Source: Nitrosomonas sp. HPC101
GTDB lineage: Bacteria; Pseudomonadota; Gammaproteobacteria; Burkholderiales; Nitrosomonadaceae
NCBI RefSeq assembly: GCF_009833125.1
Contig: NZ_QRCC01000008.1
Location: 1 to 64,000 of the forward strand
DNA length: 64,000 bases
Direction: 5' to 3'
The first letter of the stretch is position 1. Every line of letters begins with the position of its first letter. The notes beneath the pieces are model-generated. The model was not told where the DNA came from, did no database searches, and saw only the letters and a program-made list of their open reading frames with translations. Below, one piece after another: positions 4,918 to 64,000 of the stretch. Both the position numbers and the translations under genes were made by a program.

Positions 4918-5811
4918 TCAGAGGGATGGATTGGTTCTGAGCAGCGTATCGAGCACTATACCCACAAATATGACTGCGCCGATCCAGTTGTTATGCAAAA
5001 ATGCCTGGAAACAGCGAAAGGGTTCACGTTTACGGATCATGCCGTATTGAACGATGACCAGGCCCAATGCAATCAGCAGAGCGCCATAAAACCAGATGCC
5101 GCGCTGCAGTAATATGCCTGCGTAAGCCAGGATGCTCAGAAAGATGATGTGGCATAGCAGAACGCCTGCCACATCGAATCGACCGAATGTGATGGCAGAC
5201 GTTTTGACGCCGATTTTCAGATCATCCGCGCGATCTACCAGCGCATATTCGGTATCGTAAGCGATCACCCAGAACAGATTGGCCAGCACCAATAACCATG
5301 CGAGCGGTGGCACAGTACCGGTTTGTGCTGCAAATGCCATGGGAATGCCGAAGCTGAATGCGATGCCCAGGTACGCTTGTGGCATGGCAAAGAAGCGTTT
5401 GGTAAATGGATAGGAAGCTGCAAGGAACAGGGCGGGTACGGATAGCTGAATCGTCAGCAGATTGAGCGGCAGTATCAGCAGGAACGCGCACAAACTCAGC
5501 CCGGCGGCAATCAGCAATGCTTCGCGTGTCGTAATGAGGCCGGCCGCCAGAGGGCGATTGCGGGTGCGGGAAACATGAGGATCGATACGTCGGTCGGCAA
5601 AATCGTTGATGGCGCAACCAGCGGAGCGCATTAGAATCGTGCCGAGAACGAAAATTACCAGAATCTTCAAATCCGGCGTACCATCAGCCGCCAGCCATAA
5701 TCCCCATAATGTCGGCCATAGCAGCAACAAGATGCCGATAGGTTTATCCAGCCGGATCAGCCGGGCGTATGCAGAAAGCCGGTCTGCGAAGGTTATGTTT
5801 ACAGTAGTCAT
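4918..5811 (-). CDS. ubiA: UbiA, 4-hydroxybenzoate polyprenyltransferase
   Basis: Integral membrane prenyltransferase that joins the polyprenyl tail to 4-hydroxybenzoate. 297 residues, close to the E. coli enzyme. Both Mg-diphosphate binding motifs are present: NDFADRRID (about residue 68) and [12 protein letters not shown] (about residue 187). About eight to nine hydrophobic segments can be picked out, starting with [15 protein letters not shown]. It lies between ubiC, which makes its aromatic substrate, and ubiD, which acts on its product: three ubiquinone steps together. Confidence 0.96.
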
Positions 5812-60847: not shown

Positions 60848-62254
60848 TCACAGACTATAGTACAAGGCAAATTCAACAGGGTGCGTCGTAGTGCGCAACA
60901 GTGTTGCTTCTTCCGACTTGAGCTTGATAAAAGCGTCGATTGTATCGTTGGAAAATACATTGCCGCGTATCAGAAACTCGCGATCCTGGTCCAGGCTTTC
61001 CAGAGCTTCTTCCAGTGATGCACAGGTACTGGGCACCATCGAGGCTTCCTCCGGAGGCAGATCATAAAGATTTTTGTCAATTGGGTCGCCCGGATGGATT
61101 TTGTTTTGTATGCCATCCAGCCCTGCCATCAGCAAAGCAGTAAAGGTAAGATACGGGTTGGCACTGGGATCAGGGAAGCGAATTTCAATACGCCGCTGTT
61201 TGGGACTGCTGGCATAAGGGATGCGCACAGCGGCTGACCGATTGCTGGAAGAGTACGCAATATTGACTGGCGCTTCGAAACCGGCAACCAGCCTTTTATA
61301 AGAGTTGGTGCCCGGGTTGGCAAAAGCATTCAGCGCCTTGGCATGCCGGATAATACCGCCAATATAATACAATGCAATTTCTGACATGCCAGCATAGCCA
61401 TTTCCTGCAAACAGGTTTTTACCATCCTTCCAGATTGACTGATGAACATGCATGCCCGAGCCATTATCGCCAACAATCGGTTTAGGCATAAATGTCGCTG
61501 TTTTGCCGTAGGAAACAGCAATATTATGAATAACGTACTTCATCAGTTGATTCCAATCAGCGCGTTTCACCAGACTATTGAAGCGGGTGCCAATTTCACA
61601 TTGCCCGGCATTGGCAACTTCATGGTGATGAACTTCAACAGGAACTCCTAGTTCATCCAGCACCATACACATGGCTGAGCGGATATCGTGCAGGGAATCT
61701 ACTGGTGGTACCGGCATATATCCGCCTTTGACTGCGGGTCGATAACCATTGTTGCTGCCCTCATAGCGCTTCCTCGAACTCCAGGAGGCTTCTTCGGATT
61801 CGATTTTGACAAAGCACCCGGACATATCGGCATGCCAGCGTACCGAGTCAAAAATAAAAAACTCTAATTCCGGGCCGAAGTAGGCAGTATCACCGATACC
61901 GGTGGATTTCAGATAAGTTTCGCCCCGTCTGGCCAGTGATCGCGGATCGCGGCTGTATCCCTGTCCATCTGCAGGATCGATAACATCGCAGGTCAGCAGC
62001 AATGTGGTTTCTTCCATGAAAGGATCCAGTGAAGCAGTTTCCGGATCAGGCATAAGCAACATATCGGATGCGTGAATATTTTTCCAGCCGGCAATTGAAG
62101 ATCCATCAAACGGATGGCCATCTTCGAATTTATCAGCGTCAAAAGTATGTGCGGGAACTGTGACATGATGTTCCTTGCCGTTGGTATCGGTGAAGCGCAG
62201 ATCAATGAACTTGACTTCATGGTCCTGAATCATCTTTAAAACATCAGCTGCCAC
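60848..62254 (-). CDS. glnA: Glutamine synthetase, type I
   Basis: Assimilates ammonia into glutamine; in an ammonia oxidiser this is the route from energy substrate to biomass. 468 residues (E. coli 469). Blocks [26 protein letters not shown] and GTNSYKR(L)V are intact, and the adenylylation Tyr is in NLYDLPPEE (about residue 397), target of GlnE in this window. The start is GTG at 62254, chosen because CTGGAG lies seven to ten bases ahead and the family begins AADVLKMI; a longer frame adds eight unrelated residues. Confidence 0.97.
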
Positions 62255-62297
62255 AGTTTTTCTCCAGAAAAGTATCATTTGTTTTGTGAAACGGTTT

Positions 62298-62340
62298 GCA
62301 AGGTACGCGAACTTGGCAGGGAAAATGCAAGCAAGGTACG
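62298..62340. repeat. Ten-base direct repeat upstream of glnA
   Basis: GCAAGGTACG occurs at 62298-62307 and again at 62331-62340, 33 bases apart start to start (about three helical turns), 44-86 bases before the glnA start. The phasing would suit an activator binding twice on one DNA face, but no known regulator motif was recognised. Confidence 0.4.
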
Positions 62341-62478
62341 TTGACCGGTATTGTACCGTTGGGCAGGTAGCGAATAAATAGGCCCATCATTTTATTTCGG
62401 GTAAAAAACTGTGGCCTATCTGCATTTTGAATAAAAATCCGGAAAACGGCGGCACAGGTTACATCCGGAAACAGAGGC

Positions 62479-63507
62479 TCATGAAAATGTCAGGGTGGAC
62501 TGTGGAGTATTTCGTATTGCTTGCAGAAGCTGGGTCATATCGTCTGGCAACGGAGATTCCCAGCGCATGATCTGTCTGCTGTCAGGATGAGTGAGTTCGA
62601 GCTGCAGAGCGTGCAGCGCCTGCCTGGGCAGGTGTGCAATTACATTGATTGCTGGCGGGTTGGATGAAATTTTGCCATATACTGGATCTCCTACCAGTGG
62701 ATGGCCAATAGACATCAGATGAACGCGGATCTGATGTGTGCGCCCGGTTTCCAGGCTGCATTGCAGCAACGTGCAGGCAGTGAACTTTTCCAGAACTTGA
62801 TAATATGTGCGGGCGGGTTTGCCATGTCGTACCACTGCCATGCGGGTGCGATGTACAGGGTGCCGTCCGATAGGTGCGTCTACCAGACCGTCTTTCTCGA
62901 TCTTGCCCAGTGCGAGTGCGAAATAGTAACGTTTGACTGTACGTTGCTGCAATTGCCTGACCAGATCGAGTTGTGCCTCGATTGTCTTGGCAACAACCAG
63001 CAGACCGGTAGTATCTTTGTTCAGCCGATGAACGATACCGGCACGGGGCACCTGGCTTAACTGTGGAGCGTGGTTAAGCAAAGCGTTCAGTAATGTTCCA
63101 TGCCAATTGCCATTTCCTGGATGGACGACCAGGCCGGCAGTTTTGTCGACAACAATCAGATGATCGTCCTCGTAAATAATGCTGAGTGGAATAGCCTCAG
63201 CCTGATAGCTCTGATCACTTTCAATCAACCCGACGGTAATACAAATTGTTTCTCCTCCCCATATTTTTTGCCTGGTTGATCCTGTCGTACCATCCACGCT
63301 GATACGGTTCTCTCCAATCCATCGTTGTAGCCGGCTACGCGACCATTGAGGAAGCAGTTGAGCCAGCGCCTGATCCAGTCGTAATCCTGCAAGATTGCCT
63401 GGTGCAATCAGCTCAATGATGTTTTTACTTTCCTGATCGCCGGCTGCGGATGCATCAGGCTTTGCGCTATAATCGCGCTTATCTTGCCCGTTATCGAGAT
63501 TATTCAT
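62479..63507 (-). CDS. rluD: RluD-type 23S rRNA pseudouridine synthase with altered catalytic motif
   Basis: Family of enzymes that makes pseudouridines 1911/1915/1917 in helix 69 of 23S rRNA. 342 residues: a polar N-terminal tail, an S4 RNA-binding domain (about 40-90; RLDQALAQLLP) and the catalytic domain. The block that normally reads HRLDKDTTG is HRLNKDTTG here (Asn163, codon AAC at 63021-63019). The replaced Asp is the catalytic residue of the family (Asp139 in E. coli RluD). The rest, including AGRTHQIRVH-like (ETGRTHQIRVHL) and GDPVYG, looks intact. ATG 63507 directly abuts the divergent bamD start. See findings. Confidence 0.88.
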   Translation of the reverse strand: MNNLDNGQDKRDYSAKPDASAAGDQESKNIIELIAPGNLAGLRLDQALAQLLPQWSRSRLQRWIGENRISVDGTTGSTRQKIWGGETICITVGLIESDQSYQAEAIPLSIIYEDDHLIVVDKTAGLVVHPGNGNWHGTLLNALLNHAPQLSQVPRAGIVHRLNKDTTGLLVVAKTIEAQLDLVRQLQQRTVKRYYFALALGKIEKDGLVDAPIGRHPVHRTRMAVVRHGKPARTYYQVLEKFTACTLLQCSLETGRTHQIRVHLMSIGHPLVGDPVYGKISSNPPAINVIAHLPRQALHALQLELTHPDSRQIMRWESPLPDDMTQLLQAIRNTPQSTLTFS

Positions 63508-64000
63508 ATGTTGCGACAATTTTTGGCAGGGGGGGTGATAGTATTGCTGGTCTCATGCGGCATACTGTCCGAGAAAACTGTTGATAACAGTCAGTGGTCT
63601 GCGAGTAAATTTTATGTTGAAGCTAAAAATGAGCTCAACGAGGGTAATTATTCAGCTGCAGTCAAGCTGTTTGAGGCTCTGGAAGCCCGTTACCCCTATG
63701 GGCGGTTCGCTCAACAGGCACAACTTGAAATAGCCTACGCTTACTATAAGGATCAGGAACAGGCTTCGGCCATTGCGGCGGCAGACCGGTTTATCCAGCT
63801 TTATCCGCATCATCATAATATTGACTATGCTTATTATATCAAGGGACTTGCCAACTTTAATGATGATCAGGGTCTGCTGGGGTATATAACAACGAAAATC
63901 ATCAAGCAGGATTTGAGTGAACGGGATGCAAAGGCTTCAAGAGAATCATTTGAAAGCTTCAAGCTGCTGGTGACCCGCTATCCAGATAGTAAATATACAC
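63508..64000 (+). CDS. bamD: BamD outer-membrane assembly lipoprotein, 5' part
   Basis: Essential TPR lipoprotein of the BAM complex (ComL in Neisseria). The first 164 codons lie in the window; the gene continues past its end. Signal peptide MLRQFLAGGVIVLLVSC with Cys17 as the lipid-modified residue. TPR-type helices follow, e.g. YVEAKNELNEGNYSAAVKLF and a second repeat with FAQQAQLEIAYAYYKDQ, then the conserved YAYYIKGLANF. Divergent from rluD, the usual betaproteobacterial arrangement. Confidence 0.94.
   Translation, partial: MLRQFLAGGVIVLLVSCGILSEKTVDNSQWSASKFYVEAKNELNEGNYSAAVKLFEALEARYPYGRFAQQAQLEIAYAYYKDQEQASAIAAADRFIQLYPHHHNIDYAYYIKGLANFNDDQGLLGYITTKIIKQDLSERDAKASRESFESFKLLVTRYPDSKYT

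Follow-up and report, generated by a model that had tools for sequence, protein, structure and literature searches.

A rare asparagine at the catalytic aspartate position of the RluD ortholog in Nitrosomonas sp. HPC101

The RluD ortholog of Nitrosomonas sp. HPC101 is a rare allele of a known enzyme, carrying Asn at the position where the family has its catalytic Asp. We lean toward the hypothesis that this allele represents a recent, tolerated inactivation of the sole RluD found in the genome. Under this hypothesis, the strain that was sequenced, or its immediate lineage, would recently have undergone a G-to-A transition, most simply from GAC to AAC. We expect the protein with Asn to remain able to fold and to bind the pre-50S subunit but not to make pseudouridines 1911, 1915, and 1917 of helix 69. 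The cell would tolerate this loss owing to its RF2, which carries Ala at the equivalent of E. coli position 246. Four points in this reading are inferred: a genuine base, lost activity, a young change, and tolerance in this organism through the Ala form of RF2.

The pseudouridines of helix 69 are reported to be conserved across phylogeny (PMC3973299). There is dispute over what they are for, since deleting rluD is described as having a harsh effect in E. coli K-12 and a mild one in combination with the Ala form of RF2 (PMC5373646). If the allele is real, a strain found in nature whose RluD is dead through a point mutation would test whether selection keeps the modification or mere binding. At present, the case consists of one base in one assembly.

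The rluD gene and its changed codon

The gene occupies positions 62479..63507 on the minus strand of the window, by which we mean the whole 64,000-nucleotide stretch of DNA that was analyzed. It encodes 342 aa from an ATG at 63507, and the reading frame is open over 346 aa when read from an upstream TTG at 63519. The protein matched the curated RluD profile NF008385 with 371.1 bits against a cut-off of 351, over profile positions 14-315 of 325, and its residues 37-332 could be aligned with the solved RluD structure 7bl5. Structure 1v9f gave the same E value as 7bl5 (3.9e-91), and we take both to be E. coli RluD. The divergent gene beside it (63508..64000 on the plus strand, running past the end of the window to 64314 in the contig) is one that we take to be bamD from its sequence and from the order of genes in E. 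coli. It stands divergently beside rluD in the present genome and likewise in all five close relatives that were compared. Sequence and genomic neighborhood together identify the 342-aa protein as an RluD ortholog.

The preliminary description had placed an AAC codon, instead of GAC, at 63019..63021. These coordinates proved exact: on the minus strand the codon reads AAC at 63021..63019, and the stretch from 63030 to 63005, CATCGGCTGAACAAAGATACTACCGG, encodes HRLNKDTTG. The wider catalytic-motif region of rluD on the minus strand is PRAGIVHRLNKDTTGLLVVAKTI, and the AAC codon lies outside any long homopolymer. It encodes Asn163, which falls on Asp139 of 7bl5 (a residue number that we counted from that alignment), and the residue is thus the catalytic-motif Asp, as had been proposed. 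Since an active RluD is defined by a catalytic Asp in its HRLD motif, and Asn163 stands in the column of Asp139 here, we do not class the protein as an active RluD. A change from Asp to Asn is reported to inactivate E. coli RluD, and established knowledge of the family leads us to expect that the Asn163 protein would have lost its activity. Our literature search for RluD with D139 found no paper, and a search for RluD in Nitrosomonas returned a single match, by its title a soybean metagenome study. Bacterial TadA prefers a TACG context, from which the context of the AAC codon differs, making A-to-I editing of this codon unlikely.

Compared with the known 23S pseudouridine(1911/1915/1917) synthase RluD (NF008385; structures 1qyu, 1prz, 1v9f, 2ist, and 7bl5), the protein is therefore alike in its score above the cut-off, its HRLxKDTTG context, its divergent bamD neighbor, and the presence of its helix 69 target, whereas it differs in having Asn163 for Asp139 and Thr123 for the Pro of motif I.

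Rarity of the change and selection on the gene

We searched 125 whole genomes of the family and found an RluD-level match, defined as more than 300 bits, in 120 of them. When these homologs were aligned, with one locus per genome (n=120) and the larger piece used in the two genomes where the gene was in two pieces (G040 and G120), Asp occupied the catalytic column in 119 of the 120 sequences, a count that includes the present genome, and Asn occurred in the present genome only. The alignment with the RluD of relatives that the preliminary description had called for rules out Asn as a family- or lineage-wide change. There were 87 columns that were either invariant or broken by a single sequence, and the present genome breaks just one of these, the catalytic column, while ten other genomes each break one or two. 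Given how tightly Asp is held across homologs, the Asn is not drift at a loose position.

The change was similarly scarce outside the family. A DNA pattern for HRLDK[DNEK]T[ST]G matched in 327 of 398 Pseudomonadota genomes, and its Asn version matched in one of the 398, the present genome. The Asn pattern takes CGN-coded Arg and Lys after the Asn, followed by Asp, Asn, Glu, or Lys, so that HRLNR or AGR-coded forms escape it. In a collection of 84,980 species, a scan that may omit records of the source genome or of very near genomes, it found 10 stretches. Only two of these (L035 and L041) matched the present RluD or the genome's other PF00849 proteins by tblastn at E values up to 0.01. In L041, from Microvirga tunisiensis, positions 5053-5078 on the minus strand lie in an intact, RluA-family-like ORF and encode HRLNKDTSG, and apart from it and the present RluD, no intact case of Asp changed to Asn turned up among the matches of the scan. 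L035 holds a broken gene that matched in separate pieces and has four stops, and the same 26-mer occurs in L150. The remaining eight stretches were rejected as RluA-family proteins, being short ORFs with no match, of which three run off the end of the stretch. A search of plasmid records gave nine matches, all of them weak and all with less than 80% coverage of the query. That almost no other species has such a change suggests that it costs something in nature. The Microvirga protein shares with ours the Asp-to-Asn change in an intact ORF, but it scores far below the RluD cut-off (113.3 bits versus 351) and just under that of the RluA subfamily (183 versus 192.7), and its genome has four further PF00849 matches.

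The preliminary description had also held that the protein looks well preserved elsewhere. This stands for the other near-invariant sites, all of which are kept, and it does not stand for motif I, the KPxG stretch, as we take the region around residue 123 to be. There an ACT codon at 63139..63141 on the minus strand encodes Thr123 in DKTAGLVVHPG, at a position that is Pro in 116 of the 120 homologs, Ala in two, and Ser in one, with Thr in none elsewhere. Defining a rare change as a residue that no more than two sequences share in a column conserved to at least 95%, P123T is the sole further rare change in this RluD besides Asn163. As weak evidence, it tips the balance slightly toward an active site that has really loosened and away from a single error; at least two such changes occur in 11 of the 120 homologs, the present genome included. 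The largest number of rare changes at strongly conserved positions among the 120 homologs was six, in the RluD of genome G079 (1501-2514 of L012), which keeps its Asp and has five of the six within about 40 columns of the catalytic position.

Five of the 125 genomes (G043, G063, G090, G108, and G119) had no RluD-level match. A convincing bamD was likewise found in none of them: four had no match, and G043 had one weak match with 28% identity and 19 bits. The rluD locus is therefore probably missing from these assemblies, which are listed as 79-89% complete, and we rejected these genomes as proof that the loss of rluD is tolerated.

Selection on the gene was assessed with a simple Nei-Gojobori count and a three-point split, at rluD synonymous distances that are fairly high (0.65-0.8). 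On the present genome's side after its split from G007 and G008, dN/dS for rluD was 0.105 (bootstrap 0.068-0.157), compared to 0.141 (0.080-0.232) between these two closest relatives. Among the five closest relatives, pairs that include the present genome gave 0.107-0.117, and pairs without it gave 0.070-0.141. As controls from the same stretch we used the downstream neighbor of rluD, a gene at 60848..62278 on the minus strand that we take from its sequence to be glnA (glutamine synthetase; 0.025 on this side versus 0.023 between G007 and G008), together with bamD (0.056 versus 0.032), a 294-aa ORF (0.075 versus 0.082), and a 520-aa ORF (0.040 versus 0.063). Purifying selection on the remainder of RluD thus continues and is not relaxed, and because dN/dS is not raised, rluD has not been decaying over a sizeable part of the branch. 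This result fits a recent change, a base error, and a retained non-catalytic role alike, and it does not separate them.

Substrate, release factor, and competing explanations

The assembly encodes four PF00849 proteins, RluD among them, and the other three keep their Asp in the motifs HRLDRETSG, GRLDFNTSG, and GRLDIDSQG. The search for a second RluD-like gene, another check that had been proposed, found none in the assembly with the PF00849 profile. The next-best match to RluD is 33% identical and scores 115.6 bits, which is within the range of the weaker second match in most relatives, and we therefore rejected a compensating second RluD. A changed substrate was rejected as well. The helix 69 sequence GGCCGTAACTATAACGGTC, with U1911, U1915, and U1917, occurs once in the genome, inside the one 23S gene found (the search for 23S gave one match, with 12 of 26 first-look candidates scored), and it is identical to the comparison sequence that we take to be helix 69 of E. 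coli. RlmH is also present, with a match over all 154 positions of its profile. This enzyme is reported to methylate pseudouridine 1915 (PMC5430550).

The RF2 of this genome has the motif YRASGAGGQ, with Ala where E. coli K-12 has Thr246. We assume here that residue 246 is the one four positions before GGQ. Deletion of rluD in K-12 has been reported to cause a very severe growth defect with suppressors arising in RF2, while rluD deletions are viable with the RF2 of E. coli B, which has Ala246, and position 246 is described as Ala or Ser in all bacteria except E. coli K-12 (PMC5373646). Given that the severe effect is tied to Thr246 of K-12 RF2, and that Ala is present here, we predict a mild effect of RluD loss, and the warning in the preliminary description that loss of RluD would affect release-factor function, drawn from E. 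coli, does not transfer as it was worded. Since Ala in RF2 is reported to be common in bacteria, it would explain tolerance and does not single out the present genome. E. coli without any rRNA pseudouridine is reported to have a very small growth defect (PMC11194073). In Vibrio cholerae, deletion of rluD altered fitness under several antibiotics (PMC10117853), which suggests that a tolerated loss is not equal to a cost-free one.

The preliminary description had named a recent inactivation, a one-base error, and a protein that binds without modifying, and this turned out to be the right set of options. It is possible, although doubtful, that AAC is an error in the consensus base or a minority variant in the sequenced culture, in which case Asp would be encoded by the true gene and the pseudouridines would be made. 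Several features fit an error: a single base in one assembly, shared by none of the 119 other homologs and with almost no counterpart elsewhere, in a gene that is otherwise under ordinary purifying selection. However, the 31 contigs of the assembly amount to 99.93% completeness with 1.14% contamination, no long homopolymer surrounds the codon, and neither a frameshift nor an internal stop was seen in rluD, bamD, or glnA. Each of these three genes has two odd changes, which is ordinary rather than excessive (judged against 30 homologs for rluD, 29 for bamD, and only 6 for glnA), and the second rare change, P123T, falls in the same domain as Asn163. Further from our expectation is that the pseudouridines are still made, whether through Asn itself, through its slow deamidation to Asp, or through misreading of the codon. 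In favor of this, no other near-invariant position has changed, helix 69 is intact as a substrate, and RlmH is retained, but the Asp is indispensable by established knowledge of pseudouridine synthases, D144 of RluC is described as confirmed to be catalytically essential (PMC11194073), and Asn is nearly absent at this position in nature. We consider continued activity highly improbable.

An unlikely alternative is that the protein is a real pseudo-synthase, leaving helix 69 unmodified and retained for a role in large-subunit assembly, in which it binds pre-50S particles. Continuing purifying selection, the retention of the other near-invariant sites, and rare changes in both motifs I and II all agree with such a role. 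An inactive RluD point mutant is cited as having restored the growth of RluD-minus E. coli (PMC7356742, PMC10117853), and vertebrate RPUSD3 has lost the same Asp (PMC12716993). Yet the RF2 suppressors that arise in K-12 rluD mutants (PMC5373646) might confound such a rescue, and inactive RluC D144A is reported to have worsened growth and given no help in assembly in a ten-gene E. coli mutant (PMC11194073). Moreover, none of the 119 other family homologs has Asn, and at this level there is no sign of a lineage keeping the change; with 11 of 120 homologs having at least two rare changes, the two seen here are unexceptional. The fuller form of this idea, that the sole RluD has become a non-modifying assembly factor that binds helix 69 during 50S maturation, with its three uridines unmodified and RlmH facing an unmodified U1915, seems to us quite improbable; if true, it would amount to a natural separation of the modifying and assembly roles.

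The nearest natural parallel is vertebrate RPUSD3, which is likewise a natural RluA-family protein without the catalytic Asp. It differs in that its Asp became Gly rather than Asn, and in that it occurs in vertebrates beside a close active homologue, RPUSD4, whereas here the only RluD found is the one that has changed. In human cells, RPUSD3 is reported to act on neither rRNA nor tRNA to a noticeable degree (PMC12716993), and an older review links its depletion to lower pseudouridine levels in two mitochondrial mRNAs and to a missing mitochondrial large subunit (PMC6414753).

Spacing and order of the neighboring genes

The start codons of rluD and bamD abut as CATATG at 63505-63510 with zero bases between them, and 0 or 1 base separates them in the five relatives, so the ribosome-binding and promoter signals of each gene would sit inside the other. 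A promoter scan of 62250-63800 gave 2 promoter-like sites compared to 2.1 expected from shuffles, and a terminator scan of the same interval found none. On its 3' side, rluD is followed by glnA, not by pgeF/yfiH, the gene that comes after rluD in E. coli. In four of the five close relatives glnA likewise adjoins rluD at about 0.2 kb, and in the fifth, G024, it lies about 2.5 kb away.
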